From the NCBI GenBank assembly GCA_002483145.1, contig DLHJ01000014.1, positions 62,001 through 126,000 on the forward strand: a DNA stretch of 64,000 nucleotides, read 5' to 3'. Below, piece after piece: positions 1 to 15,690 of the stretch (the first letter of the stretch is position 1; the number at the start of each line of letters is the position of its first letter). The notes beneath the pieces were generated by a model. That model made no database searches. It worked only from the letters and a program-made list of their open reading frames with translations, and was not told where the DNA came from. The DNA is from Cellvibrio sp. UBA7671. Lineage in GTDB: Bacteria; Pseudomonadota; Gammaproteobacteria; Pseudomonadales; Cellvibrionaceae. The translations under genes and the position numbers were made by a program.

Positions 1-1134
1 CAGATTACTGCATTGCGCACTGTGCAATCGCAACAAGTGATTGAGGAAGGGAATGGGGATATTGATGTAATCGCGGCAGAAATGCGCGCAGCTGCGATTT
101 GTGTGCACGTATTGTTTATTCGGCAGGGGCGAATTCTCGGGAGCCGCAGTTTTTATCCATCGGCCACACTGGCAGAAACACCTGCAGAAATTCTCGCTGA
201 GTTTATCCCACAATTTTATCTCGCCAGCAGCGGCCGTGAAATTCCGCGCGAGCTTATTGTAAGTAATCAATTAGAAGAGTCTGAGTTGCTCAGTGCCGCC
301 TTGCAGCAATCGGTTGGGCGTCAGGTATTAATCAATCACCAGGTGCGCAGTCATCGCGCGCAATGGTTACAAATGGCGGCAACGGCTGCACAACAAAATT
401 TAATTGCCCATATCAATAATAAGAAGAATTCGCTCGATCGTTTTATCGCATTGCAGGAAGCGCTTAATCTGGATGAAACACCGCAGCGTTTGGAATGTTT
501 TGATATCAGCCACAGTAGCGGCGAACTTACCGTTGCCAGTTGTGTGGTGTTTGATACCAATGGCCCACTCAAGTCTGATTATCGCCGCTTCAATATTGAT
601 GGAATTACGCCCGGTGATGATTACGCGGCAATGGAGCAGGCGCTTACGCGGCGCTACACCCGCTTGCAAAACGGTGAAGGCAAGTTGCCTGATATTTTAT
701 TGATCGATGGTGGCAAAGGGCAGTTGGGCAAGGCGATAGAAGTGCTTGCTGAGTTGGGTGTACAAGGTGTGCAGTTAATTGGTGTCGCCAAAGGTACAAC
801 GCGCAAAGCAGGTTTTGAAACTTTGTTCGATGGTGAAACTGGTGCAGAGATAGTATTGCCCGGCGATTCACCTGCATTGCACTTGATCCAGCATATCCGC
901 GATGAGTCGCATCGCTTTGCCATTACCGGTCACAAGCAGCGGCGCGATAAAAAGCGCAAGACGTCGACCCTGGAAGATGTCCCCGGTATTGGCGCTAACC
1001 GCCGCCGCGAGTTGTTGCGTCACTTTGGTGGTTTACAAGAGGTACAAAACGCCAGTATCAATGATTTGGCGCGCGTCAATGGCATTAGCCAGCGGCTTGC
1101 CGAAGAAATCTATGCCTTTTTCCACAATGATTAA
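1..1134 (+). CDS. uvrC: UvrABC excinuclease subunit C (5' end outside window)
   Basis: C-terminal 377 residues of UvrC, the nuclease that cuts both sides of a DNA lesion in nucleotide excision repair with UvrA and UvrB. The reading frame is open from base 1, so the GIY-YIG domain and most of the UVR motif lie upstream of the window; the visible part starts at the end of the UVR helix (ALRTVQSQQ). It then has the RNase H-like endonuclease domain (LECFDISHSSGELTVAS near residue 160, DILLIDGGKGQL near 230) and a C-terminal helix-hairpin-helix pair (LEDVPGIGANRRRELLRHFGG, then ARVNGISQRLAEEIY). The TTG at base 13 is internal and not a start. pgsA follows in the same direction, a gene pair conserved in many gammaproteobacteria. 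Confidence 0.97.
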   Translation, partial: QITALRTVQSQQVIEEGNGDIDVIAAEMRAAAICVHVLFIRQGRILGSRSFYPSATLAETPAEILAEFIPQFYLASSGREIPRELIVSNQLEESELLSAALQQSVGRQVLINHQVRSHRAQWLQMAATAAQQNLIAHINNKKNSLDRFIALQEALNLDETPQRLECFDISHSSGELTVASCVVFDTNGPLKSDYRRFNIDGITPGDDYAAMEQALTRRYTRLQNGEGKLPDILLIDGGKGQLGKAIEVLAELGVQGVQLIGVAKGTTRKAGFETLFDGETGAEIVLPGDSPALHLIQHIRDESHRFAITGHKQRRDKKRKTSTLEDVPGIGANRRRELLRHFGGLQEVQNASINDLARVNGISQRLAEEIYAFFHND

Positions 1135-1243
1135 TCCTCCTCGACACATACTCCAATTGTTTCAGTAATATAACCAAAGCGTGTTAATAGCTTGTTGCTG
1201 GTGTATTATCGCGCCCGAACATACAGTCTCCCGGGAACCGCTT

Positions 1244-1798
1244 ATGACCCTTGCCAACCAACTTACCTTGGTGCGGATTTTTTTAATCCCGCTCTTTGTA
1301 GTGGTCTTTTATTTACCCTTTGGCTGGGCTTACATAGTCTCTTCATTGATTTTCAGCGTCGCCGCCATTACTGATTGGGCGGATGGTTATGTTGCGCGCA
1401 AATACAATCAAAGCACACCTTTTGGCGCCTTTCTTGATCCCGTCGCCGATAAGTTGATGGTGGTGATTGCGCTCCTGTTGTTGGTCACGCTGCACCATGA
1501 TTCAGTCTGGTTTGTGGTTGCCGCCGCAGTTATTGTTGGGCGTGAGATAGTCATATCGGCATTGCGTGAATGGATGGCCGCGGTAGGGCAGCGGGCAAGT
1601 GTGGCTGTATCGAGTATTGGCAAAATCAAAACAACGCTACAAATGACAGCCATTATTGTATTGCTAGCTAATATCCCGATACTGCTTCCTATTGGTTTTA
1701 TTGCCTTGGCGGGTGCTGCAGTGCTGACACTCTGGTCAATGATTCTTTATTTGCGTGCCGCCTGGCCTTATTTGTTACCAGAGTCGCCTGAAAAATAA
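1244..1798 (+). CDS. pgsA: CDP-diacylglycerol--glycerol-3-phosphate 3-phosphatidyltransferase
   Basis: Makes phosphatidylglycerol phosphate from CDP-diacylglycerol and glycerol 3-phosphate in the inner membrane, the committed step to phosphatidylglycerol and cardiolipin. The 184-residue protein has several hydrophobic segments and the full CDP-alcohol phosphotransferase signature D-x2-D-G-x2-A-R-x8-G-x3-D-x3-D (TDWADGYVARKY then GAFLDPVADK, residues about 42-68). The ATG at 1244 starts at MTLANQLTLVRI, the usual N-terminus; an upstream in-frame ATG at 1181 would add a non-conserved stretch and is not preferred. It lies 109 bases after uvrC and just upstream of two tRNA genes, as in E. coli (uvrC-pgsA-glyW-cysT-leuZ). 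Confidence 0.96.
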   Translation: MTLANQLTLVRIFLIPLFVVVFYLPFGWAYIVSSLIFSVAAITDWADGYVARKYNQSTPFGAFLDPVADKLMVVIALLLLVTLHHDSVWFVVAAAVIVGREIVISALREWMAAVGQRASVAVSSIGKIKTTLQMTAIIVLLANIPILLPIGFIALAGAAVLTLWSMILYLRAAWPYLLPESPEK

Positions 1799-1869
1799 CG
1801 CCTTTTTGATCGACCTGCACAGCATTTAGTCAACTGTCAAAAAACCTTCCTGCGACCTGGATAAAAGAC

Positions 1870-1898
1870 TAGGATTTTCAAAATGAGTCCGCTAGAAT
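1870..1898 (+). promoter_or_regulatory. Possible promoter of the tRNA-Cys/tRNA-Leu unit
   Basis: A TAGAAT -10-like hexamer lies at 1893-1898, followed directly by a GC-rich discriminator (TGCGGCC), as is common for stringently controlled stable-RNA promoters. The -35 position (about 1870-1875, TAGGAT) is poor. The mature tRNA starts 17 bases after the -10, leaving room for a short leader. Assigned from position and -10 only. Confidence 0.3.
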
Positions 1899-1914
1899 TG
1901 CGGCCTCTCGAAAT

Positions 1915-1988
1915 GGCGCGATAGCAAAGCGGTTATGCTCTGGATTGCAAATCCAGCTAGTCCGGTTCGACTCCGGATCGCGCCTCCA
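1915..1988 (+). tRNA. tRNA-Cys (GCA)
   Basis: A 74-base tRNA. The acceptor stem GGCGCGA (1915-1921) pairs with TCGCGCC (1978-1984), followed by discriminator T and an encoded CCA (1986-1988). The anticodon loop TTGCAAA is closed by CTGGA/TCCAG and gives anticodon GCA (Cys). The T arm contains GGTTCGACTCC. It corresponds by position to E. coli cysT downstream of pgsA. Confidence 0.97.
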
Positions 1989-2024
1989 TTTTTCCCCTTT
2001 TACGTACCGACGTAAAAGCACTCC

Positions 2025-2111
2025 GCCCGAGTGGTGAAATCGGTAGACACAACAGATTTAAAATCTGTCGATCTTTTGGTCGTGCCGGTTCAAGTCCGGC
2101 CTCGGGCACCA
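2025..2111 (+). tRNA. tRNA-Leu (TAA)
   Basis: An 87-base class II tRNA with a long variable arm (GTCGATCTTTTGGTCGT region). The acceptor GCCCGAG (2025-2031) pairs with CTCGGGC (2101-2107), followed by A and an encoded CCA (2109-2111). The anticodon loop TTTAAAA, closed by ACAGA/TCTGT, gives TAA (Leu). It starts 36 bases after tRNA-Cys, so the two are very likely one transcript, and by position it corresponds to E. coli leuZ. Confidence 0.97.
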
Positions 2112-2142
2112 TCTACAAATCGCAAGTTATTGCGATCACCTC

Positions 2143-2170
2143 AAAGCCCTGCAATTGCAGGGCTTTTTGT
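2143..2170 (+). terminator. Rho-independent terminator of the tRNA unit
   Basis: AAAGCCCTGC (2143-2152) and GCAGGGCTTT (2157-2166) form a perfect 10-bp stem with a 4-base loop, followed by T-rich sequence (TTTTTGTTTT). It lies 31 bases after the CCA of tRNA-Leu. Confidence 0.9.
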
Positions 2171-2441
2171 TTTCCATAAGCAATTTCTTATTGATTAATA
2201 ATCGGTGAGCTTCTGGCTCAGAGACTTATTTCAATCCTTTGTTGGCAGTGAGCGCTGGGTTTAGCTAGCGTCAATGAGTTTTAAAATACTTGCTTTATCA
2301 GTGTTGCAGGAAATGATTTTTTAGGTGATACCAACTTCTTGAAAATTATAAGAATATTCTGTGGTGATTTGCACTTCCACTCGAATACCTCAGCCAAGTG
2401 GGAAGCAAAGTGTCTGGCGCCATAATCGGAGCTAAAATATC

Positions 2442-2603
2442 CTACTCCAATTTGGTCGTATTTTCTTTTGGATCTATCGATACACTATTGTTTACAGTGT
2501 CTTTTTCAGAGCGGCCTACGGAATCTATTTTGGCTGCTCGATTTCGTAGAATCATCGCTACGATACCGAAAATAATAGAGCTGAAAATACCGCTACCAAC
2601 CAT
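2442..2603 (-). CDS. Possible small single-pass membrane protein (53 aa)
   Basis: An ATG at 2603 opens a 53-residue frame. It begins with a hydrophobic segment (MVGSGIFSSIIFGIVAMIL), followed by a basic RNRAAK stop-transfer-like stretch and a polar tail ending DPKENTTKLE. This layout is typical of small bitopic membrane proteins. The ribosome-binding site is weak (GAAGA upstream). A second, better-spaced GTGGAG-ATG start (ATG at 2627) in another frame stops after 22 codons, so either this is a non-coding coincidence or the original gene has a frameshift. No family is recognised and there are no partner genes nearby. Confidence 0.3.
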   Translation of the reverse strand: MVGSGIFSSIIFGIVAMILRNRAAKIDSVGRSEKDTVNNSVSIDPKENTTKLE

Positions 2604-2840
2604 AAGTTATCTTCAGTAACCGACATAAATTACTCCACAGTTTCCCCTGATTGCACTCCCAAATGTGTTTGACCATAGACTTAGGCTAAAACAGTGTCGG
2701 TGCAGATGCGAACATACGGCAATCACATTCAATAAATTGCAAATGCTTGCAAAAGTGAGTAGAGATTTCCCGTTAATTTTTCGTCGCACTATTTGTGTGA
2801 GGTGCATCTCTTTATTGTGGTCGTTCTTTTGGAGCAAGCC

Positions 2841-2868
2841 CGTACGGTTGAATAACACCAACCGTACG
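2841..2868. repeat. Orphan 10-bp inverted repeat
   Basis: CGTACGGTTG (2841-2850) and CAACCGTACG (2859-2868) form a perfect 10-bp stem around an 8-base loop. No T-run follows on either strand, so it does not look like an intrinsic terminator. It lies in a region without a clear gene. It could be an operator, a structured RNA element or the relic of a mobile sequence. Confidence 0.6.
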
Positions 2869-3225
2869 AACCATTTTGGCCATTCGTATCCTCGGTAATC
2901 AATCCAATTTCGCTATCAAAAACATCTGCCTAGTGTGACCTATTTGGCTAAAAAACAGCTGTTTAATCCCATGTTTCTGCAAGTCGCCAAAGTGAGATGA
3001 GTTTTGCTCCAGTGGTTCCTATCATAGGCTGGCTCAGTGAACCCTATAACTCTCCGTTTAATCACAAGTAAGAATAATAAGTAGCAAGGTTTTCAGTGGG
3101 CAATCAACTGTGAGGTTATTCCGTAATTTCATCTCCATTTTTTAACTTCCACGCAGCACACCGTACATAGCAAGTAATGCTTTGGCGTCGCACTGCGTCA
3201 TTCCGGTTCTATTGGAGGCAACTCA

Positions 3226-6200
3226 ATGAACACCTTTATAAATATAATTAGGTGGTGCAGAAGTATTCACAAGCTGTGTTACGCGCTTGCGGTAGTTATA
3301 TCTGCGCTGTTTGTCGCTGCATCAGCAACGGCGCAAGCTCCCAAGTCCACTGATTTTCAGCGGACGGTGGTAGCGGAGGGATTGGATTTACCCATGGAGT
3401 TTGAAATTTCTGCCGATGGCCGCGCATTTGTCGTGAGCAAGTGCGGCAAGTTTTACGGTTGGAAATTGGATGCGGGTATCGCTACTGTCACATCTACTGT
3501 ACCGAATGTGCGCTGTGTATTTGAAGACGGATTACTGAGCGTTGCGCTTGATCCCAAATTTACCCAAAACGGATTTATTTATTTCCAATACACCTCGCCG
3601 GGGAGTAAAACCCGAGTGTCGCGTTTTACGGTGAATGCCAACAACGCGCTGATTGCCGGCTCTGAATCCATTTTGTTGGAGTGGATTACTGGTAATGAAG
3701 CGCATGGCCATATGGGCGGCAGTTTGAAGTTTGATAAAAACGGCAACCTGTTGATTACCACTGGCGATAACAACGCGGCGAGCGGTTATTTCTCCGAAGG
3801 TGCGCAAGCGACGTCAGGCAACACCAACGATTTGCGCGGTAAAGTATTGCGCATTACGCCGACAGCCGATGGCAAATACACCATTCCGGCAGGCAATTTA
3901 TTTCCCGCTAGTGCAACCCATCGCGCTGAAATTTACGGAATGGGGTTCCGCAATCCCTTCCGCATTAATATCGATCCGCTGACCGGTTATGCATACCTCG
4001 GCGATATTGGCCCGGATTCTTCTGCTGCGAGTGCTGAGGGCCCCGGTGGAATGGATGAGCTGAATGAACTGCGCACGGCAGGAAATTATGGCTGGCCCTA
4101 CATTGTTGGTTTCAACGAGCCTTATGCTGGCTTTAATCCGAATAACATTGTTAATAATCACGCCCGCAATACCGGTGCAAAAAATTTACCGGCGGCTAAA
4201 CCGGCGCTCTGGACTATTCGCCACCAGGCGACCATGGCGGGGCCGGTGTATCGTTTTAATCCAGCGATTACCAACGAATTTAAATTGCCTGAGTATTACG
4301 ATGGCCGTTTGATTTTTTGGGATTTCAACAGCAGCAAATTTTCAACGATTAATTTGGCAGCGGGTGGCAATCCACCCGTTGCTGAAGATTTTCCGTTGAA
4401 CACGGCAAATTTTCAGGGTGCGATTGATGTAGAACTTGATCCTCGCACCCATCAACTTTATGTATTGCAATGGGGTTCAGGTTGCTGCGATAAGGAGCCC
4501 TTTGGCAACGGTGTTTTGTATCGTTTTGATTATATCGGCGACCGCGATAACGGCACCAATGTCGCGGTGGGTGGTGTTGCAAATGCAACGACAGAAACCG
4601 GTGGAAATCTCGCGGCCTATGCGATTGATGGCAACCCGGCAACTCGCTGGGAAAGTACCGCTGCAGATCCACAAAGCCTGACCATTGACCTGCGCACACC
4701 CACAACGATCGCGACCATTATTATTAAATGGGAAGCCGCATTCAGTTCCAAATATATTATTGAAGCTTCAGTCAACGGCACAACTTGGGAGCGCTTGGTC
4801 ACTAACAATAACGGCACCGGTAATGCCGAATTGCATATGATCAATTCAACCACGGCTTACCGTTATGTGCGCTTGACCGGAACGGCGCGTGCGAGTGCCT
4901 ATGGCCACTCAATCTACGAGTTTGAAGTATTCGCAGGTGCACAGCCGGAGCAACCGCTCACGCAATTTGCCTATTTGAATATGCCTAAAACGCTGGATGC
5001 CAGTTTCACCGGCGTGCCCAAGTTGTTGTCGCAAACTGGCGTATTCAGCAACACGCCGAATATGACACCGATTGCGAACCTTGTTCCCTTTGCACCTAAC
5101 AGCCAGCTCTATTCCGATAACGCCACCAAGGCGCGTTGGATATCGTTGCCGGCTAATACCAAAGTGAAATGGGATGCGAAAGAAAACTGGGTTTATCCGC
5201 AAGGCACAGTAGTGGTGAAAAATTTTGAATTGCCCACTAATGCAAATAATCCTGCAACTAAAAGACGTCTCGAAACCCGTTTGTTGGTCGTCAAGGCCGA
5301 TGGCAAAGTTTACGGTGTTACTTACAGATGGCGTGCTGATAATAGCGATGCGGATTTGTTGACCACCGGCGCGCAGCAAAATGTCAGCATCACCAATGCG
5401 GACGGCACAACAACAACGCAAACCTGGACTTACCCAAGCCCGACGGAATGTATTGATTGCCACAACGCGCAATCTAGCCAGGTTCTTGGTTTGAGTACGC
5501 GTCAGTTGAATGGCAATTACACTTATCCCAACGGAGTGACAGAAAACCAATTGGTGAATTGGAATAATCGCAATTTGTTTGCGCCTGCGTTTATCAATAG
5601 TCAGGTTTCCGGTTTTGACAAAATGGTCGCACTCGGTGACACCAGCGCTTCGTTGGAAACCCGGGTGAAATCCTATCTCGATGCCAACTGTGCGCATTGC
5701 CATGGTACGGGTAATGGTGGATCGCAATGGGACGCGCGCTTTAATACGCCCTTGAGCCAAATGAAAGTCGTGAACCTCGCGACTACCGGTATTCGCGATT
5801 ACCTCGCGGACTACGGTATTACCAATGCAAAAATCGTTGCCGCTGGCGCGCCGCGGCAATCGGTGCTGTACATCCGCGATAAGAGCATCAACCCGAATGA
5901 CCGTATGCCACCCATTGGTCGCTCGTTGGAGCATAAGGAATACATCGCGGTATTGGAGCAGTGGATCGCCAGTTTGTCGGGCACTCCGCCACAACAAGGC
6001 AAGACGTTATTGTCAAAAGGCAAGCCGGTGACTGTCTCGTCATTTGAAGGTGGTTTTGTTGGCTCCAATGCTGTTGATGGTGATGTGTTAACCCGTTGGG
6101 GCAGTCAATTCTCTGATCCGCAATGGATCGAAATCGATCTGCAATCGGCGCAAAACATCAGTGAAATTAAGCTGGTGTGGGAGGCGGCTTACGGCAAGTC

Positions 6201-8490
6201 TTACACCATTCAAGGATCGCTAGATCGCAACCAATGGACCCCGATAGTGACCAAAACCAATGGCACTGGCGGTGTTGAAACCCATACCAATTTGTCCGGT
6301 TCCTATCGTTATATTCGTTTGAACGGCACTGTGCGCGGAACTGGCTACGGTTACTCGCTATTTGAGTTTGAGATCTGGGGCGGTACGGGTACTCCGCCGG
6401 TTGAGCCACCTGTGGAACCGCCGGTACAAACGCCAGTGCTGATCTCGCAAAACAAAACGGTTTCAACCTCGGCAGTAATTGGCGGCAACAACGGCGCGGC
6501 AGCGGTCGATGGCAACATGGGCACGCGTTGGGAAAGCGTGTTTGCCGATAACCAATTTATCCAGATCGACCTGGGCAGCAAGATGAAGATCACCCAGGTA
6601 GTGCTGGAGTGGGAGGCGGCTTACGGCAAAGGTTACGTGATTGAAGCATCGGATACCGGAACCGGCGGCTGGACTGAATTGTTCCGCACGACTACCGGTA
6701 ATGGTGGGCAAGATGCCTTGACCGTCAATGGCCAGGGGCGTTATGTCCGCTTGACCGGTATCACACGTGGCACCCAGTACGGTTTCTCGCTGTGGGAATT
6801 CCGTGTCTACGGCACTTCTCTGGATGTCGTGACCACGCCAACCATTAGCATTGCCGCACCAACAGCGGGCCAACAGTTTGTGCAAGGTAACAACGCCAGC
6901 CTGCAAGTGACGATTAGTGATGCGGCCTGGTTTAGCGCGGGCGGCAGCTATCGTTACTCGCTCAATAATGCAGCGGCAGTCAGGGTGACTAATGCAGCTC
7001 CCGTCAATCTGGGGGCTTTGCCAGTCGGTGATCACAGCGTTTCGGTCACCTTGCTGAATGCACAGAGCCAGGTCGTGGGGGTAAGTAACTCAGTCGGTTT
7101 CAGTGTTAGATCGACCGGTGTTACACCCACTACACCAAGCCCGGCAAAACTCGCGCCGACGGGATCAACCGCCTCCAGCTTCCTCGGCGGTAATACCGTG
7201 GCAAGTGCGCATGATGGCAATGTCGCGACCCGTTGGGAAAGTGCCGAAACCGACACCCAATATATCCAGCTGGATATGGGGAAAAGTGTGCACTTCACCC
7301 GCGCGGTGCTGAATTGGGAAGCCGCTTATGGCAAGAGCTATGTAATCGAGGTATCTGAAAATGGCAGCACCTGGGAAATCGTCAACACCACCACTAACGG
7401 TGACGGCGGTATCGATACTCTGATACTGGATGGCCAAAAAGGGCGCTATATCCGTATGCGCGGAATACAGCGTGCGACTGGCTACGGTTATTCCCTGTTT
7501 GAGTTTGAGGTTCACGGTGTTCCCGCTGATGCAAACCTCGCGCTCATCAGCTTCCTGTCGCCGGCAAATGATGCGGTGATCGCGCAGACTGAGGCAGTGA
7601 AATTCCGTGTTGCCATTACCGATGCCAATTGGTTTGCGAGCGGTGGTTATGTCTATTACCTGGATACCAACCAAGGGGTGCGTGTTAACAATCTCAATGA
7701 AATAAATCTGGGGCTGTTACCGACTGGCCAGCACAGTTTGCGCATCAGCTTGGTGAACAGCAGCGGTGTGGAAGTCAGTGTGCCCAAGGTGCGCAAATTC
7801 CGCGTGAGTTGCGGAACGACTTGTCCGAAAGTGTTGGTCTTCTCCAAAACCTCGGGCTTCCGCCACGACTCTATCGCGGCCGGTATTGCGATGGTGCAGC
7901 GTATCGCGCAGGACAATGGCTACATAGTCACGACCTCGGAAGATGCGAGCCTTTTCACCACTGCAAATCTCGCTCAGTACTCCACGATTGTGTTTATGAA
8001 TACCACTGGCGACATCTTCACTGCTGCGCAGGAAGCTGCATTCAAAACCTATATGGAAACCGGTGGCGGTTTTGTCGGTACTCACTCGGCGGCGGATACA
8101 GAGCACGGTTGGCCCTGGTATACCGGAACCCTGTTTGCCGGTGCGGAATTTATTCATCACGGCGATGGAATCCCGCGCGCAAAAGTGAAGATCGAGAAAC
8201 TGGAAAATCCGTTGGTGAAACACATCGGTGCTGAGTGGATGCTCGGTGATGAATGGTATTTTTGGAAAACCAATCCGCGCGGTGTAGGCAATGTGGAAAT
8301 CCTGGGCACGCTGGACCGCACCAGTTACACCTCGAATTATCCGGTTGCCGATCATCCGGTGATTTTCACCAATACTGTCGGTACAGGCCGCATGTTCTAC
8401 ACCGCCATTGGCCATGTCGATGCCAATTTCTCCGATCCCAATATGGTGGAAATGATCCGCAAAGCAATTGAGTGGACGTCTGCCAATTAA
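3226..8490 (+). CDS. Secreted multidomain PQQ sugar dehydrogenase-like / diheme cytochrome c / F5/8C / ThuA protein
   Basis: A 1754-residue exported protein. A signal peptide ends near residue 37 (SATAQA). Domains in order: a glucose/sorbosone dehydrogenase (PQQ) beta-propeller at about 40-440, with a His-x-Gly-Gly motif at H162 and GMGFRNPFRINIDP; F5/8C discoidin module 1 at 446-570; a diheme cytochrome c region at about 583-915, resembling the SO2930/HNE_0200 family, with CIDCH (C742, C745, H746) and CAHCH (C822, C825, H826); F5/8C modules 2 (930-1051) and 3 (1072-1197), joined by a Pro-rich linker; an Ig-like segment (1203-1295); F5/8C module 4 (1305-1435); a second Ig-like segment (1436-1527); and a ThuA-like domain (1534-1754, FSKTSGFRHDSI). 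The start has GGAGG 7 bases upstream. Inferred role: oxidation of a sugar or polysaccharide outside the cytoplasm, with electrons passed to the fused hemes. The substrate and the role of ThuA are unknown. Confidence 0.85.
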   Translation: MNTFINIIRWCRSIHKLCYALAVVISALFVAASATAQAPKSTDFQRTVVAEGLDLPMEFEISADGRAFVVSKCGKFYGWKLDAGIATVTSTVPNVRCVFEDGLLSVALDPKFTQNGFIYFQYTSPGSKTRVSRFTVNANNALIAGSESILLEWITGNEAHGHMGGSLKFDKNGNLLITTGDNNAASGYFSEGAQATSGNTNDLRGKVLRITPTADGKYTIPAGNLFPASATHRAEIYGMGFRNPFRINIDPLTGYAYLGDIGPDSSAASAEGPGGMDELNELRTAGNYGWPYIVGFNEPYAGFNPNNIVNNHARNTGAKNLPAAKPALWTIRHQATMAGPVYRFNPAITNEFKLPEYYDGRLIFWDFNSSKFSTINLAAGGNPPVAEDFPLNTANFQGAIDVELDPRTHQLYVLQWGSGCCDKEPFGNGVLYRFDYIGDRDNGTNVAVGGVANATTETGGNLAAYAIDGNPATRWESTAADPQSLTIDLRTPTTIATIIIKWEAAFSSKYIIEASVNGTTWERLVTNNNGTGNAELHMINSTTAYRYVRLTGTARASAYGHSIYEFEVFAGAQPEQPLTQFAYLNMPKTLDASFTGVPKLLSQTGVFSNTPNMTPIANLVPFAPNSQLYSDNATKARWISLPANTKVKWDAKENWVYPQGTVVVKNFELPTNANNPATKRRLETRLLVVKADGKVYGVTYRWRADNSDADLLTTGAQQNVSITNADGTTTTQTWTYPSPTECIDCHNAQSSQVLGLSTRQLNGNYTYPNGVTENQLVNWNNRNLFAPAFINSQVSGFDKMVALGDTSASLETRVKSYLDANCAHCHGTGNGGSQWDARFNTPLSQMKVVNLATTGIRDYLADYGITNAKIVAAGAPRQSVLYIRDKSINPNDRMPPIGRSLEHKEYIAVLEQWIASLSGTPPQQGKTLLSKGKPVTVSSFEGGFVGSNAVDGDVLTRWGSQFSDPQWIEIDLQSAQNISEIKLVWEAAYGKSYTIQGSLDRNQWTPIVTKTNGTGGVETHTNLSGSYRYIRLNGTVRGTGYGYSLFEFEIWGGTGTPPVEPPVEPPVQTPVLISQNKTVSTSAVIGGNNGAAAVDGNMGTRWESVFADNQFIQIDLGSKMKITQVVLEWEAAYGKGYVIEASDTGTGGWTELFRTTTGNGGQDALTVNGQGRYVRLTGITRGTQYGFSLWEFRVYGTSLDVVTTPTISIAAPTAGQQFVQGNNASLQVTISDAAWFSAGGSYRYSLNNAAAVRVTNAAPVNLGALPVGDHSVSVTLLNAQSQVVGVSNSVGFSVRSTGVTPTTPSPAKLAPTGSTASSFLGGNTVASAHDGNVATRWESAETDTQYIQLDMGKSVHFTRAVLNWEAAYGKSYVIEVSENGSTWEIVNTTTNGDGGIDTLILDGQKGRYIRMRGIQRATGYGYSLFEFEVHGVPADANLALISFLSPANDAVIAQTEAVKFRVAITDANWFASGGYVYYLDTNQGVRVNNLNEINLGLLPTGQHSLRISLVNSSGVEVSVPKVRKFRVSCGTTCPKVLVFSKTSGFRHDSIAAGIAMVQRIAQDNGYIVTTSEDASLFTTANLAQYSTIVFMNTTGDIFTAAQEAAFKTYMETGGGFVGTHSAADTEHGWPWYTGTLFAGAEFIHHGDGIPRAKVKIEKLENPLVKHIGAEWMLGDEWYFWKTNPRGVGNVEILGTLDRTSYTSNYPVADHPVIFTNTVGTGRMFYTAIGHVDANFSDPNMVEMIRKAIEWTSAN

Positions 8491-8524
8491 TTAGCAATCA
8501 ATTATTAAGTTTCATCCTCGCTTC

Positions 8525-8554
8525 TCCGCGCTGTTAATACAGCGCGGATTTTTT
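8525..8554 (+). terminator. Rho-independent terminator after the large secreted protein
   Basis: TCCGCGCTGT (8525-8534), loop TAAT and ACAGCGCGGA (8539-8548) form a perfect 10-bp stem followed by six T. It lies 35 bases after the stop at 8490 and 27 bases before the ATG of the next gene, so the receptor gene needs its own promoter or transcriptional readthrough. Confidence 0.9.
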
Positions 8555-8580
8555 CATGCAGCTTTGGTGTCGAAAACGTT

Positions 8581-10515
8581 ATGAACAACAATAAAGTAAA
8601 AAACCGATTTAAAAATATTTCACATCTTTCAATGAATGTATTGCCGACTGCTTTGTTATTGAATGCAATGCCGCTTTTTGCACAGCAGAATGCTATCGAG
8701 CAAATTATTGTTACGGGAACATACAACCCACTCACTATGGAACAAGTGTCATCCAGCTTGAGCGTGGTTGATCGGGAAATGTTGGGGCAATTGAATAAAA
8801 CCAATCTGGCCGAGGTACTGCAATCGATACCCGGCGTATTGATTGAGCGGCAGGGCGGTCCCGGTGGGTTAGCGGTGGCATCCATTCGCGGTGGAGAATC
8901 AAATTACACAGTAGTGATGATTGATGGCATCGCGATGAATGATCCAGGCAACAGCCGTGGTGGTGCATTTGATTTGGGCAGCATCAATGTGGATTCTATC
9001 GAGCGCATTGAAATAGTACGCGGCCCGCAGTCTGCTATTTACGGTGCGGATGCACTTGCCGGTGTTATTAATATTATTACGCTGCGCCCGCAACAGGGCC
9101 ATCAGCAATCGATATCTGCCAGTGTTGGCGATGAAGGTTTTCAGCAAGCGGGTTTTAGTGCGCTGGGTGCCGGTGATAAAACCGATTATGCAATTCAAGC
9201 GCGCGTGCGCGACTCGGGTGAGCCGGTTGAAGGAAGCAGGGCAGAAGACAGTGAAATTAATTTACGTTTGGGATGGCGACCAACAGACGCACATTCTATA
9301 ACCGCAAGCGTCCGCTATTTTGATGGTGACCGCAGCAGTTATCCAGAGCAAAGCGGTGGCCCGCAATTCGCTACATCCCCTGCATTGGACTACACCGACT
9401 ACACCGATAAAAGTGCAGCTCTGGGTTGGCAATTCCAGATCGCCGAACAATGGAAAAGCCATTTGCAAGCGACACATTACGAGCGCAGTGAATTATTTGA
9501 TTCGCCGGGTATTGCCCCTTACAACGCAATTCCTCCCAATGGTGCTGACACCGAATTTAAACGTCAGCAAATATCCTGGATAAACACCCTTGGCGAGCAA
9601 GGAAAGTTGTGGGCGAATGTCGGTTTGGAAAATCGTAAAGAAGAGGGCGATAGCCGCGGTTATCTGGATTTTGGTTTTGTAATTCCTACAGATTTTGCAT
9701 TGGATCGCTCCACCGACAGTGGTTTTATTGATATCAATGCGCAACTGAATGAAAAACTATTATTGCAGGCCAGTGTGCGCAATGACGATACCGATGGCTT
9801 TGGTGGCGAAACATCAAACAGACTGGGGTTGCGCTATCAATTATCTGAATCTATTGCGCTACGTGCGAATCGCGGTGACGGTTATAAATTACCGAGTTTT
9901 TTTGCTCTCGGGCATCCATTAGTGGGTAATGCAAATTTAAAACCCGAAAAAGTTGATAGTTGGGATGCAGGAATTGCATGGCAATTGTCAGATCAACTCA
10001 ACACCAGTATCGATTATTTTGCCAACGATTTTCGTGATCCCATTGATTTTGACAGCGAGCTTTTTACCAACGTCAATCGTGAGCAAATCAAAACCAGCGG
10101 TGTTGAGTGGCAAGCGCAATGGAGCAGCGTGGATAATCGTGTAGGGTTGCGTGGTAATGTGACCTATACAGATATTGATGTGAAAGATAGCGTTTCAGTT
10201 TTGACGGGTAGACCCCAATGGCGCGCGGGAATAGCAGCGCATTGGCAGCTCAGTGAGAGTTTGCGCACCAGCCTGGATTATCAGCAAGTGGGTGAGCAGT
10301 TCGCAACCAGTCAGCACACCGGTGATGCAACCTTACAAGTATTAGATGATTACCAACGGTTAGATGCCACTTTGTTTTGGTCGGTGAGTGATTCATTGGG
10401 TATGACTGTGTCAGTAGAAAATCTATTTGACAGTGCAGCGTCTACAGCTGTCGGTTTTCCGGCACCAGGTTTATTGTGGCGGTTTGGGTTACAGTGGAAA
10501 ACGGGACAGCAATAA
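8581..10515 (+). CDS. TonB-dependent outer-membrane receptor (BtuB/FepA-like)
   Basis: A 644-residue outer-membrane receptor that would import a scarce ligand using TonB energy. The N-terminus has a signal-peptide-like stretch (ALLLNAMPLFAQ, cut near residue 35) and then a TonB box-like IEQIIVTG. The plug domain follows (LAEVLQSIPGVLIERQGGPGG, VVMIDGIAMND, IEIVRGPQSAIYGADALAGVINIIT) and then a 22-strand-type beta barrel ending SVENLFDSAASTAVGFPAPGLLWRFGLQWK. Length and plug sequence recall BtuB and small siderophore receptors, but there is no cobalamin riboswitch or Fur box that I can see, so the ligand is open. An ATG at 8632 is a less likely start because it would lose the basic N-region. 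The gene sits directly after the PQQ/cytochrome protein, and the tonB-type gene at the window end could serve it. Confidence 0.88.
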   Translation: MNNNKVKNRFKNISHLSMNVLPTALLLNAMPLFAQQNAIEQIIVTGTYNPLTMEQVSSSLSVVDREMLGQLNKTNLAEVLQSIPGVLIERQGGPGGLAVASIRGGESNYTVVMIDGIAMNDPGNSRGGAFDLGSINVDSIERIEIVRGPQSAIYGADALAGVINIITLRPQQGHQQSISASVGDEGFQQAGFSALGAGDKTDYAIQARVRDSGEPVEGSRAEDSEINLRLGWRPTDAHSITASVRYFDGDRSSYPEQSGGPQFATSPALDYTDYTDKSAALGWQFQIAEQWKSHLQATHYERSELFDSPGIAPYNAIPPNGADTEFKRQQISWINTLGEQGKLWANVGLENRKEEGDSRGYLDFGFVIPTDFALDRSTDSGFIDINAQLNEKLLLQASVRNDDTDGFGGETSNRLGLRYQLSESIALRANRGDGYKLPSFFALGHPLVGNANLKPEKVDSWDAGIAWQLSDQLNTSIDYFANDFRDPIDFDSELFTNVNREQIKTSGVEWQAQWSSVDNRVGLRGNVTYTDIDVKDSVSVLTGRPQWRAGIAAHWQLSESLRTSLDYQQVGEQFATSQHTGDATLQVLDDYQRLDATLFWSVSDSLGMTVSVENLFDSAASTAVGFPAPGLLWRFGLQWKTGQQ

Positions 10516-10518
10516 TTA

Positions 10519-10545
10519 TGGATACCCGCGTTCGCGGGTATGATG
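10519..10545 (-). repeat. REP-like palindrome, copy 1
   Basis: ATACCCGCG (10522-10530), TT and CGCGGGTAT (10533-10541) form a 9-bp palindromic core. Read on the minus strand it matches the other copies (TCATCATACCCGCGAACGCG). It is in inverted orientation to copy 2, the usual paired layout of repetitive extragenic palindromes. It starts 4 bases after the receptor stop codon. Confidence 0.85.
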
Positions 10546-10573
10546 AAAGTGCAATCTGTTGGATGTTTCTTTA

Positions 10574-10604
10574 TTCGTCACTCCTGCGAACGCGGGAGTC
10601 CAGC
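10574..10604 (+). repeat. REP-like palindrome, copy 2
   Basis: TCGTCACTCCTGCGAACGCG leads a stem CTCCTGCG (10581-10588) / CGCGGGAG (10591-10598) with one T-G wobble, followed by TCCAGC. It is the inverted partner of copy 1, with about 30 bases between them. Both lie between the convergent receptor and DUF1566 genes. Confidence 0.85.
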
Positions 10605-10624
10605 ATTGTATATTTCTCACTTAT

Positions 10625-11224
10625 TTATTTTCTATTTCCACGCACCAAACGTAAAGGTAAGCGATCACCACGAAAGCCGTTGTAATAATTCGATGCACCT
10701 GTGGCAAAATCAACCGTTTGCGCATGTTCAGGATAATTTTGATAAGTGGATACGGACCAGTAGGGGGCTTCCAAGGTTAATTGAAAAATTTCAGGATTAA
10801 CTGTTGTTTTTTCGGCTGTGTTGGTTGCCAACGTCTTTAACTCATCAATAGTTGGCACTCGCCAGTCATCAAAACCACATAGCTTTTCAGTATTGGTTGC
10901 ATTGAGCAGGCTATTCCAGTCATCAAAAAAAATCGATCCAGTTTTTTCTGCACCATTGCCGCCCCAACGATAAACATTGTCTTTATCGTGAGCACTGGCG
11001 TCATCGGTTTTTAGTTCCCATGTTAAACCAGAAGTGAGAATAGTGGCGCAGCGTGCATGTGCGGTGACGGTTTTGCCTTGTGCATCCAATAATGTGTACG
11101 ATCTTTTGTCTGCTGAGGTTGATGCAGTCACAGGTTCAGTTGCATCGCAGTTTAAAATTAAAATATTGGTGGTAATAAAAATGGTTAGTGTTGCGGTTGA
11201 TTTCAATCGTTTTATCAAATGCAT
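10625..11224 (-). CDS. DUF1566 (Lcl C-terminal-like) putative lipoprotein
   Basis: A 199-residue protein with an N-terminal export signal ending in a lipobox-like LILNC (Cys near residue 26), so probably a lipoprotein. The body has the DUF1566 pattern: GLTWELKTDD, a tryptophan-rich core, CGFDDWRVPTIDELKTL, YWSVSTYQNYPEHAQTVDFATG and a terminal LPLRLVRGN. Members of this family are exported, and some carry adhesin-like (Lcl) C-terminal modules; the biochemical role is unknown. The start at 11224 has GAGG 9 bases upstream. It converges on the TonB receptor gene and is not obviously in an operon with the hemerythrin gene 143 bases upstream. Confidence 0.75.
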   Translation of the reverse strand: MHLIKRLKSTATLTIFITTNILILNCDATEPVTASTSADKRSYTLLDAQGKTVTAHARCATILTSGLTWELKTDDASAHDKDNVYRWGGNGAEKTGSIFFDDWNSLLNATNTEKLCGFDDWRVPTIDELKTLATNTAEKTTVNPEIFQLTLEAPYWSVSTYQNYPEHAQTVDFATGASNYYNGFRGDRLPLRLVRGNRK

Positions 11225-11366
11225 GGACTATACCTCTGTGTGGGCATTTTTATTATATAGCAAGCTGGTTGCTGTGCAGAAGGTGATTTTTAAGGGTGAC
11301 AATGTAGGGCTGTTGGGTAGTGCTGAGAGGAGCTTTAAGAGAATTCCTTTTCTCTTGAGGCCAATG

Positions 11367-11852
11367 TTACTTCTGGGCTAAAAGCTCTTCTTTGCGTTGT
11401 GTCAATTGTTCACCAAGGGCATACATGTCCAGTTTGCTCGCCTTGGCTTTTGGGAATATTTCATTTTGCTCTTCTTTCACGTGGTGCTTAACGTATTCAG
11501 AAAGTACTTTTACTTTAGCGTCATACATTTCGTCGTTCGGCTCACCTTCCTCTATTTGGGCAATTAGCTCTTTAAGCGTTGCGTGTTCCACCGTTGCTTC
11601 AGGAATTAATTCCTTGTCCTTTAAGGCTGCCTTTACTTGAGGATAGAAAATCTCTTCTTCGATTTGCGCATGCACTGTCAATTCAGTACAAATTTGGGAG
11701 ACTATAGCCTTCTTTTTGGTGGATGATTTGGCGCTTTCATATTGCTCAAATAACAAATCCACTGCTTTGTGGTCTGCTTTAAGCAATGCAGTAGCTTCCT
11801 GCGCCTTAGGGGCCTTCTCTGTGCTAACTGATTTCTTTTGTGCGGTTGCCAT
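11367..11852 (-). CDS. Hemerythrin HHE domain protein
   Basis: A 161-residue cytoplasmic protein. After a Lys/Ala-rich N-terminus it has a four-helix HHE hemerythrin-like domain with His/Glu metal ligands (LLKADHKAVDLLFEQYE, TVHAQIEEEIFYPQV, VEHATLKELIAQIEEGEPND, YVKHHVKEEQNEIFPKAK). Such proteins bind a di-iron centre and are linked to oxygen, nitric oxide or iron handling. ATG 11852 is chosen because GGAG lies 7 bases upstream; a longer frame from 11888 lacks a site. It is the last of four same-strand genes (SDR, catalase, alcohol dehydrogenase, hemerythrin) with a stress-protection theme. A 7-bp hairpin (AAGAGAA 11337-11343 / TTCTCTT 11350-11356) lies downstream without a T-run. Confidence 0.88.
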   Translation of the reverse strand: MATAQKKSVSTEKAPKAQEATALLKADHKAVDLLFEQYESAKSSTKKKAIVSQICTELTVHAQIEEEIFYPQVKAALKDKELIPEATVEHATLKELIAQIEEGEPNDEMYDAKVKVLSEYVKHHVKEEQNEIFPKAKASKLDMYALGEQLTQRKEELLAQK

Positions 11853-12011
11853 ATCAATCTCCAAGGTTTTGTTTAAGTGACAGCTCAAGTTCGAGCCTTG
11901 CTTATTTATAAGTCAATAGCGACGGCATCTCGGTGCTACACCTAACATACAGAGCGAAAAGTTTCTTACACTTATTGGTTCAATATAAATCCTGCTTTGC
12001 GCAATATTGCC

Positions 12012-13245: not shown

Positions 13246-15690
13246 TCACACCGGGCATGGATCTTTTTCCCGTTCAAATGAACGGTGTCCGGCTAACGCG
13301 TTTTTAAATTGCGTGAGCGATGCGTCCTGGATTTTTTCCTGGTCAACGATGACAGCTGGGTCGGGAGTGCCATCAGCAAAAGTTGAAGGAACGCCTGCTA
13401 CGGCTAACAATATCCCACCGCCAATTGAATATATCGGCTTACAGTGGCGATATTGTTGACGTACAAAATCGAGCGCGTCGGCGTTGTGTTGGAGTGAGCC
13501 ATCGCCCTGAACAATGATCACACCATCGTAGAGTACCGAAGGGCCTGCCTCTAATGTGATTTCAATATCCAGCGCGGCGCCATCGGCAGTTGTTACTTTA
13601 CCCAGACGGGTACCCACGAGCCTCGGCACGGCGCCATCTTTAAGCAAATCTTCGTAAAGAGTGGATACGCATTTTTGGTCAATACCATTACTGATTAGTA
13701 GCGCAACACGACGTGTGGCGATACCAGTAGTGCCCGGTCTGGTTAACAATGAGAGCGCAGGAGAGGGCGGATAAGTGGGAATTGGCAAATTGGATGCGAG
13801 TGGCATCGCCGGAGGAAGCTCAATACCCAAACCATCTGCAACGCTACCGGCCAATAACTCATTCACATTGACTAATAGGGAAAGGACGCGCGCGCGGATG
13901 GCCGGCGTTTGTACGCGTGTCAGTTCAAAACGAAATGCATTGATAATGTGGGTTTGCTCTGCGGGTGATTGGCTTTGCCAAAATAATCTTGCCTGCGAAT
14001 AGTGATCGGAAAAAAGTTCGGGATTCCCACGCACCTTATCTTCTGCGATTGGTTCTGGATAACTTTTGTAACCCGACATTCCCGCCTGGAACGGGCATCC
14101 ACCTGCAAGCGAATTTGGCTCGTAGTTAACGCGACCGCGATTGATCGCTTGGCGATGCATGCCATCACGTTGATTATTGTGCACTTGTGCTACAGGTGAA
14201 TTGATTGGAATTTCGTGGAAGTTTGCGCCTCCCAAGCGACTAATTTGTGTATCAACGTAGGAGTGAATTCTGCCTTGCAATAGTGGATCATTCGAGAAAT
14301 CGATTCCCGGTACAACATGCGCGGTACAAAACGCGACTTGCTCGGTTTCTGCAAAAAAATTATCCGGATTTCGATTCAATACCATTTTCCCAACCGGTGT
14401 AATCGGAACCAATTCTTCCGGCACTAATTTGGTAGGGTCGAGCACATCAAAAGGAAACGTGTTCGCGGTATCTTCTGTAAATATTTGTAGCCCTAATTCA
14501 TATTCCGGAAATACACCTGCTTCAATGGCTTCCCATAAATCGCGGCGATGAAAATCCGGATCGGCGCCAATAATTTTGGCCGCTTCGTCCCACACTAATG
14601 AATGCGTCCCAGCCAAGGGTGTCCAATGGAATTTACAAAATACCGACTGACCTTCAGCGTTGACCAAACGAAAGGTATGTACACCAAACCCTTGCATAGT
14701 GCGATAACTGCGCGGAATAGCGCGATCAGACATTTGCCACAACAGCATATGTGTTGATTCCGGCATCAGCGAAACAAAATCCCAAAAGGTATCGTGTGCG
14801 CTCGAAGCTTGTGGCATAGCGTGATGCGGCTCGGGTTTAACCGAATGCACAAGATCCGGAAATTTCATCGCATCCTGAATAAAAAACACGGGAATATTAT
14901 TGCCGACTAGATCCCAGTTGCCTTGATCGGTATAAAATTTCACTGCAAAACCGCGTACGTCACGTACTGTATCAGCAGAGCCACGTTCACCGGCAACCGT
15001 TGAAAAACGTGTAAACACCGGCGTGCGTTTTCCTTCTGCACTAAAAGGCGCCGCCGTAGTAAATTCTGTTAACGCGCGATAGGATTCAAAATAGCCATGC
15101 GCAGCAGAGCCTCGCGCGTGAACTACACGTTCCGGAATGCGCTCATGGTCAAAGTGAGTAATTTTTTCACGCAGAATAAAATCTTCCAGCGCTGTTGGGC
15201 CGCGTAATCCAATTTTTAATGAGTGTTGGTTGTCGGCAATTCTCACACCTTGATTCGTTGTTAACGGCTGATTACTGCTATCAACTCTCACGCGGTCCAG
15301 GGAATCCACGGTAGGGTTTGATCCTGGAAAAAGTATTCCTTCACCTGTTTTTGGTGAAGCAATAATTTCTGAAGATGTACTGCTACCGGCTGCGGGGGAG
15401 GTAGGCTCAACTATCGCTCCGGTAAGGGGAGTGCGCGAAGCTTCGCCATACTCATGTGGCTTATTAAGATTCGATGATATTTTTTCAGCCAGCTCCTGAC
15501 CTCCTAGTGTTTTGTCTAACAAGCGTTGCTTAACTGGATCATCTGATCCAAGTGTTTTTGGCGGTTGGTTGGTTGAGGGTCCAGAAACGGTACTTAAGAC
15601 AGAGCCTGCACCTGCTGTATCTTTATAGGTGTCACTGGATTTATCTTTTTTACTGACTTTACTGTCATTTGTTTTTGAAGAGTTGCTCAT
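13246..15690 (-). CDS. katE: Catalase HPII (large-subunit, GATase-like C-terminal domain)
   Basis: An 814-residue large-subunit catalase that dismutates hydrogen peroxide. The heme site has the active His in [12 protein letters not shown] (about residue 192), the distal Asn in VGNNIPVFF and the proximal Tyr ligand in [15 protein letters not shown]. The C-terminus (about 655-800) is the flavodoxin/class I amidotransferase-like domain specific to HPII catalases ([22 protein letters not shown]). The N-terminal ~120 residues are Ser/Lys-rich and longer than in E. coli KatE (753 residues in total). ATG 15690 has AAGGA upstream. It is followed by an alcohol dehydrogenase and preceded, 163 bases upstream, by an SDR gene; such genes are often under the general stress sigma factor, but no clear box is seen here. 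Confidence 0.95.

Follow-up and report, generated by a model that had tools for sequence, protein, structure and literature searches.

A GSDH-type propeller, a diheme cytochrome, CBM32-type modules and a ThuA domain on one conserved, apparently exported chain in Cellvibrio

In a 64,000-nucleotide stretch of DNA from Cellvibrio sp. UBA7671 (assembly GCA_002483145.1, contig DLHJ01000014.1, positions 62,001 to 126,000 of the forward strand), here called the window and situated on contig 11 of the 5.04 Mb genome, one open reading frame (ORF) joins a propeller of the glucose/sorbosone dehydrogenase (GSDH) type to a diheme cytochrome domain, four F5/8C modules of the carbohydrate-binding module (CBM) family CBM32 and a ThuA domain. 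We give about an even chance to the idea that this fusion is an extracellular, polysaccharide-anchored, quinohemoprotein-like dehydrogenase, and consider such a redox reading likelier than its rivals. The parts of the gene are given below in window coordinates; other loci carry our L numbers.

3226–8490, + strand: whole fusion gene, 1754 amino acids (aa), apparently exported; a single ORF whose backbone is common to 14 homologues
3331–4533, + strand: six-blade GSDH propeller, aa 36–436 (PF07995; Foldseek)
3709–3711, + strand: His162, equivalent by alignment to the catalytic base (His144) of soluble glucose dehydrogenase (sGDH)
3949–3954, + strand: Arg242-Asn243 (sGDH Arg228-Asn229), present in all 15 window-type propellers
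4009–4017, + strand: Gly262-Pro263-Asp264 of the calcium loop (sGDH Gly247-Pro248), 15 of 15; the Asp is as in AA12
4483–4488, + strand: vicinal Cys420-Cys421, invariant in 15 of 15 window-type propellers
4543–4950, + strand: F5/8C module a, aa 440–575, between propeller and cytochrome (Pfam, homologue alignment)
4951–6000, + strand: SO2930-type diheme cytochrome domain, aa 576–925 (TIGR03806; AlphaFold2 model)
5449–5463, + strand: heme site 1, C742–H746, CxxCH in 48 of 48 aligned sequences
5689–5703, + strand: heme site 2, C822–H826, CxxCH in 48 of 48 aligned sequences
6007–6381, + strand: F5/8C module b, aa 928–1052, closest to chitosan-binding CBM32
6433–6813, + strand: F5/8C module c, aa 1070–1196 (Pfam, homologue alignment)
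6823–7101, + strand: Ig-like spacer (Big_7, Pfam)
7117–7515, + strand: F5/8C module d, aa 1298–1430 (Pfam, homologue alignment)
7519–7815, + strand: putative second Ig-like spacer, aa 1432–1530
7816–8487, + strand: ThuA domain, aa 1531–1754 (PF06283 at 205.2 bits, gathering score 33.4; PDB 4jqs, E 8.6e-24)

Much of this content had been read from the letters alone in an earlier note, and Pfam and NCBIfam scans bore it out. Pfam placed GSDH (PF07995) at aa 53–294 (E 9.7e-38; 130.7 bits, passing the gathering score of 25), F5_F8_type_C over four stretches (E 1e-81), the Ig-like Big_7 at aa 1205–1274 (E 5.8e-05) and ThuA (PF06283) at aa 1535–1751 (E 1.8e-60). The NCBIfam profile TIGR03806 aligned over positions 2–314 of its 314 with aa 598–917, at 239.7 bits, below the curated cut-off of 313.3. 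Both CxxCH motifs lie exactly where that note had put them, and its view that the chain is exported agrees with a signal peptide that we read by eye. Its two Ig-like spacers fared differently: the first is the Big_7 match, and the second, which has no Pfam name, is proposed from its position and from a block conserved in 14 of 14 homologues.

The architecture is conserved among relatives. A TIGR03806 profile search of 116 related genomes gave matches in 61, and 20 regions with longer ORFs were fetched, a subset, so that the genome count for the fusion is a lower bound. Together with the window, the 14 homologues make 15 fusion proteins in at least 12 of the 116 genomes (at least eight of the 21 genomes of the genus and four others of the family), with GSDH–cytochrome parts 60–93% identical to those of the window. 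All 14 run from GSDH through one F5/8C module and the diheme domain to another one to three F5/8C modules, variable Ig-like spacers and ThuA, and this recurrence argues that the fusion is no product of chance or misassembly. Variations include two b modules in three of the 14, an additional N-terminal F5/8C module (L062), and, at the C-termini of L050 and L051, a tail rich in Ser, then Gly-rich and hydrophobic segments and finally basic residues, an ending that we take to resemble the surface-sorting GlyGly-CTERM kind. Two named Cellvibrio contigs carry the fusion protein (JAJQJO010000012.1 and MVDH01000002.1). Among 369 genomes sampled from the whole class, in which the family is hardly represented, the full GSDH–F5/8C–cytochrome model at E<=1e-60 matched the Cellvibrio sp. 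UBA7671 genome only; eight genomes had any match, the remaining seven over one part.

The top Foldseek fold for the propeller is that of sGDH (1qbi, E 5.9e-21), and Hedgehog-interacting protein (HHIP) is also among the top folds. His162 is present in every window-type row (15 of 15), and its equivalent in every SO-type row (18 of 18, from 17 distinct proteins) and in 83 of 83 propellers of named-contig loci, among the matches listed; over these three groups the catalytic His, Arg and Asn are all kept in every one of 116 aligned rows (115 distinct, one locus occurring twice). The vicinal Cys-Cys pair is also present in L181 and L183; vicinal cystines beside pyrroloquinoline quinone (PQQ) are known from alcohol dehydrogenases. 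A structure model running from propeller to cytochrome (aa 37–925) reached pLDDT 83.8 and pTM 0.60.

In the cytochrome domain, His746, His826 and Met894 are the sole His or Met columns conserved at 75% or more among 48 sequences. Met894, present in 46 of them (the other two being gapped), is likely to be the sixth ligand of heme site 2. Heme site 1 has no His or Met partner conserved at the 75% level in the same alignment, which bears on one rival explanation: that catalysis takes place in the heme domain itself, with site 1 binding peroxide or another ligand in a peroxidase- or oxygenase-like manner beside a lectin-like propeller. A gene for a di-heme oxidoreductase (DHOR) lies near five of the 14 homologues (L050, L051, L053, L054 and L058), and there is a faint likeness to the cytochrome P460 fold (E about 0.3, not significant), both of which would suit this idea. 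We nevertheless think it quite improbable, as PDB searches gave no significant peroxidase match by fold or by sequence, and Lys665, which stands in each of the 42 rows (of 48) that have no gap there, could be a heme ligand. The DHOR proteins of L053 and L054 carry two F5/8C modules, and that of L050 had no PDB relative at E<=0.01. The cytochrome domain was modelled confidently by AlphaFold2 (pLDDT 91.2, pTM 0.89), yet no solved relative was found in the PDB: the fold search gave nothing at E<=0.001 (best 0.087), and the best sequence match, at E 0.18, was among chance-level matches to streptavidin. SO2930-family TIGR03806 cytochromes resemble it in their full-profile alignment and two CxxCH motifs, but in the relatives the matches above the cut-off are mostly ORFs of about 300–460 aa.

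Returning to the dehydrogenase reading, that these propellers really pass electrons on can be argued from the way in which similar propellers are repeatedly paired with different cytochromes: the SO2930-type diheme domain, a single cytochrome c, and chains with at least five CxxCH motifs. The last kind is found in L181 (1372–4719) and L182 (1408–4671), where a GSDH–F5/8C pair precedes the heme motifs (L181 also has a weak MtrC/MtrF-like match, under the cut-off), and which, as judged from sequence, constitute an independent GSDH–multiheme fusion in another gammaproteobacterial family. On the GSDH–diheme core itself it is the binding modules that are swapped, CBM32 in the window type giving way to CBM26 or CBM5/CBM10 in its siblings. 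The CBM26 class (L066, L067 and L068; about 2250 aa) has GSDH, diheme domain and four CBM26 stretches in three of three scanned, together with a planctomycete-type cytochrome/DUF1587–1592–1588–1585 block, and its genes adjoin one for a DUF1552-type protein. The CBM5/10 class (1322–1324 aa) has GSDH and diheme domain with PA14, CBM10 and CBM5_12 in two of three scanned; the third member, L061, runs off its contig, and Pfam shows GSDH alone. A GSDH–diheme form of about 730–870 aa is common, and is also found in the same genome as the window (L046). When propellers were placed in a FastTree, with the YliI type as root and 21 of 83 actinobacterial rows included, those of the window type joined the ThuA–GSDH propellers (support 0.93) and lay separately from the GSDHs that the remaining diheme forms carry (18 rows, 17 distinct). 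A second tree, rooted at its midpoint, sets the diheme domains of all these fusions apart from those of 13 other, mostly short, TIGR03806 proteins. From these two trees, it seems that the diheme domain has been paired with two GSDH lineages.

The F5/8C modules give some indication of what the chain may bind. The top PDB match of module b is 4zy9, a chitosan-binding CBM32 of Paenibacillus IK-5 (E 2e-32). Glu14, Arg31 and Glu61, presumably the chitosan contacts of CBM32 DD1/DD2, are all three present in the window's module b, and Glu14 is found in 15 of 17 b modules, four of 10 c modules and none of 15 a or 15 d modules (its absence from the window's module a may be an alignment effect, since a Glu stands one column off). 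The IK-5 modules are chitosan-specific and important for adsorption to fungal walls (PMC4663542), and in a GH16 beta-1,3-glucanase a discoidin domain binds a variety of polysaccharides (PMC2789033). GH16-type genes lie near at least three of the 14 homologues (L052, L056 and L060), a minimum, as candidates picked by eye were scanned; the L052 neighbour combines GH16, Glyco_hydro_cc, CBM6 and one F5/8C module. In L056 and L060 an ECF sigma factor, FecR and a large TonB receptor are encoded between the fusion and the GH16 gene, and an STN domain was found in the receptor of L056, the one scanned. Our best guess, by analogy with these relatives, is that the target would be beta-glucan or chitosan of fungal walls.

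To the earlier note, ThuA was an unexplained second activity. ThuA beside such a GSDH is in fact not unusual, and two of the three ThuA domains of this genome are joined to GSDH, the other such protein carrying a single cytochrome c. A scan of named genomes with a ThuA-free query gave at least 597 stretches, of which the nearest 80 loci were kept, a biased sample; among the matches listed, ThuA and GSDH are on one chain in 76 of 80 loci (74 of the 78 actinobacterial loci, L075–L152), and the diheme domain is present only in two Cellvibrio loci. The actinobacterial proteins resemble the window's in GSDH (36–40% identical), but have no diheme domain, no CxxCH in their GSDH ORFs and, in nearly all, an N-terminal ThuA, again among the matches listed. 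In L140 the order is GSDH–PKD–CBM6–ThuA–3-keto-disaccharide hydrolase, and a profile made from this hydrolase domain found it joined to ThuA in eight of 80 loci, and ThuA, a like domain and GSDH on one chain in two of 80, among the matches listed. Because actinobacterial ThuA–GSDH chains thus sometimes include 3-keto-disaccharide hydrolase domains, ThuA probably acts on an oxidised sugar. This genome has three proteins of the hydrolase family PF06439 above the cut-off. Members of that family have 3-keto-glycosides as their known or proposed substrates, and one probably works in the periplasm (PMC9007349); a thuAB-like operon has been proposed to make 3-keto-maltose (PMC4765114). In the open-access literature we found no paper on the pairing of ThuA with a sorbosone or sugar dehydrogenase.

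The fusion gene is followed by these features:

8525–8548, + strand: terminator-like hairpin between fusion and receptor genes (consensus scan)
8581–10515, + strand: BtuB-like TonB-dependent receptor, directly downstream of the fusion
10625–11224, − strand: Lcl_C (DUF1566) protein, a recurrent neighbour, also in five of 14 loci by BLAST cluster

The receptor is directly downstream of the fusion in six of the 14 homologous loci, and its subfamily also occurs near the CBM26-type chain of L067. Its scores are far under both curated cut-offs, for BtuB (TIGR01779, 242.1 against 599.7 bits) and for PqqU (NF041535, 46.3 against 1200), and both identities were rejected; no cobalamin (B12) riboswitch reached the gathering score in positions 1–12000 of the window. 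The terminator consensus scan found eight such sites in the region, against 11.1 expected from shuffles. The only close paralogue of the receptor in this genome (47% identity, E<=1e-20) is in L176 (contig 15, 3847–10973), in a row with an L,D-transpeptidase, a 3-keto-disaccharide hydrolase (PF06439) and a 1077-aa one-heme protein that matches DUF7133 weakly, under the cut-off; the hydrolase gene immediately precedes that of the one-heme protein, and the paralogue comes after it. Counting the window, members of this receptor subfamily thus adjoin two unlike cytochrome chains within a single genome. In L175 (contig 11, 6528–11944) a PF06439 gene and one for a PVC-type HEAT-repeat heme protein (TIGR02604/TIGR02603) are two ORFs apart, so that in sequence terms a 3-keto hydrolase is again near an exported cytochrome chain. 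A large ORF a few genes from the fusion (13246–15690) is catalase-like by reading alone.

Taken as a dehydrogenase, the chain might work as follows. The CBM32-type modules would hold it on a polysaccharide of the beta-glucan or chitosan type, as the relatives of the modules and a few neighbours of the homologues suggest. The propeller, to judge from its conserved catalytic residues, would oxidise a sugar unit by means of an ortho-quinone bound to calcium, for which scavenged PQQ, held in a modified pocket, is the likeliest candidate. The two c-hemes would relay the electrons to an acceptor outside the chain, for instance a cytochrome at the cell surface or a lytic polysaccharide monooxygenase (LPMO). 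ThuA would then process the oxidised, probably 3-keto, sugar, in keeping with the ThuA–hydrolase chains of relatives, and the BtuB-like receptor might import a product or the cofactor. A complete one-chain machine, in which the propeller makes a 3-keto unit in the bound polysaccharide, the hemes carry the electrons off to the cell surface or other enzymes and ThuA cleaves or rearranges the linkage of the keto-sugar, we regard as unlikely.

Several findings weigh against the dehydrogenase reading. The equivalents of sGDH Lys377, Arg406 and Arg408, the carboxylate anchors for PQQ, are lost in all 15 proteins (Asn in 15, Gly in 15, and Ile in 14 with Asn in one). Genomes of the genus lack pqqC (0 of 21), and the PqqU-like receptor of the window's genome scores 425 bits, far under the curated cut-off of 1200. 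A GSDH-annotated domain pair of Teredinibacter bound no PQQ and did not oxidise glucose (PMC10916295). The BtuB-like receptor is not a direct neighbour in eight of the 14 loci, the hairpin that precedes it counts against close co-expression with the fusion, and the GH16-type neighbours come from candidates picked by eye. Patterns for the ThuA active site are not uniform among the 15 (THS?A in 12, GDE.Y in four, GH.D in 13) and were not used as evidence.

The lost anchors speak for a second rival: the propeller may have lost its cofactor, like HHIP, which is among its best fold matches, and now serve for binding or as a scaffold, with the hemes in some other role. The Teredinibacter result also fits, although the pair in question, pf08450–X173, differs from the window's propeller type (PMC10916295). 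We find this explanation doubtful, since the catalytic His, Arg and Asn persist in all the aligned rows and such propellers are found repeatedly with several kinds of cytochrome. A dehydrogenase with PQQ, as the earlier note had it, is thus half sustained: the catalytic residues and the Gly-Pro of the calcium loop stay in 15 of 15, but the Lys and Arg anchors are gone, so that the name 'PQQ' is unproven and the loss of PQQ-binding residues, which the earlier note said would refute its view, is half borne out. Lys377 and Arg408 of sGDH are named as PQQ contacts in PMC6881789, and PQQ contacts are also named in PMC6881810. This genome's YliI-type GSDH (L047), a control, retains the equivalents of Lys377, Arg406 and Arg408, and Arg stands at the 406 position in 33 of 83 propellers of named-contig loci, mostly in ThuA chains, among the matches listed. 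In relation to sGDH and Asd (YliI), then, the window protein shares fold, catalytic His, Arg and Asn and the Gly-Pro loop, but departs in these anchors and in its fused hemes, CBMs and ThuA. Synthesis of PQQ by the host is set aside on the absence of pqqC from the genus; the gene is present in 18 of the 116 relatives, and its absence from the 12 genomes in which the fusion was seen does not tell of depletion given that overall frequency. The PqqU-like receptor (G000:C14:18015–19886; L153, L168), for which the next-best score is 59.7 bits, is likely, as a receptor of this kind in a genus without pqqC, to be a PQQ scavenger, and because the genome holds it despite lacking pqqC, scavenging of PQQ in the manner of E. 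coli is a possibility.

The earlier note had also seen a likeness, in layout, to a fungal cytochrome–PQQ–CBM enzyme, and this holds for the GSDH, cytochrome and CBM chain. The fungal AA12 enzyme CcPDH has a six-blade propeller, catalytic His, Arg and Asn, a cytochrome, a CBM and the calcium-loop Asp; it differs in its b-type AA8 cytochrome and CBM1, and no ThuA is described in the accessible text (PMC6881789). Of the AA12 set (CcPDH Arg273, Arg621, His539 and His560), compared by position only, the conserved C-terminal Arg corresponds to Gly in the window protein, and Lys72 and His333 (each in 15 of 15), which by position lie roughly where AA12 has further basic PQQ contacts, are possible stand-ins. 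Membership of AA12 was rejected: PF22807 (TrAA12) matches nothing in this genome and nothing in the fusion protein at E<=0.1, and in 57 relatives it gave short matches in nine, one of them above the cut-off and with internal stops.

CcPDH drives LPMOs (PMC5960967), and the shared layout, with four AA10 LPMO genes in the genome, suggests a third rival, a functional bacterial analogue of CcPDH or cellobiose dehydrogenase that mainly feeds electrons from a small sugar to AA10 LPMOs on their substrate. The X183 cytochrome of Cbp2D in Cellvibrio japonicus can initiate LPMO reduction (PMC8981238), which lends it plausibility. Its chances seem to us small: none of the four LPMO genes is within the window, the results for two redox proteins of Teredinibacter have been judged to conflict with a role as LPMO donor (PMC10916295, PMC12055684), and ThuA is left unexplained. 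Cbp2D and Cbp2E are, like the window protein, CBM-bearing redox proteins, important on cellulose, Cbp2D having c-type cytochrome domains; they differ in their YceI-like X158, CBM2 and, in Cbp2D, X183 and X132, and the accessible parts of the papers do not mention GSDH, ThuA or CBM32 (PMC8981238, PMC12542752). Neither YceI-like X158 nor CBM2 had a Pfam match in the fusion protein at E<=0.1.

The nearest published counterpart is a CBM5- and CBM10-bearing GSDH–cytochrome protein of the Teredinibacter secretome, likened to CcPDH in 2025 with its function left open (PMC12055684). By its description this protein (Teredinibacter turnerae E7_MBN_03865/TERTU_2567) resembles the window's as a secreted chain of GSDH, cytochrome c and CBMs, but has CBM5/CBM10 in place of CBM32, and ThuA is not mentioned in the accessible text (PMC12055684); from its size (143 kDa) and modules we infer that it belongs to the class of L064 and L065 (1322–1324 aa). 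The novelty supposed in the earlier note is reduced to that extent, and what stands is the CBM32–ThuA form, of which we found no description in the open-access literature. The window family is a real, conserved variant of an already published kind, the putatively redox-active GSDH–cytochrome–CBM chains.

The lack of a bacterial counterpart of cellobiose dehydrogenase has been named as a gap (PMC8981238, PMC10916295). The family is a tractable test case, with a GSDH-type propeller covalently tied to hemes and CBMs, which is widened by the CBM26 and CBM5/10 siblings and by sister proteins with different cytochromes. It would also tie GSDH and ThuA to extracellular 3-keto-sugar chemistry, offering ThuA a role. 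If the one-chain machine described above is real, a polysaccharide would be opened by oxidation and elimination instead of hydrolysis, and the product imported by a dedicated receptor.

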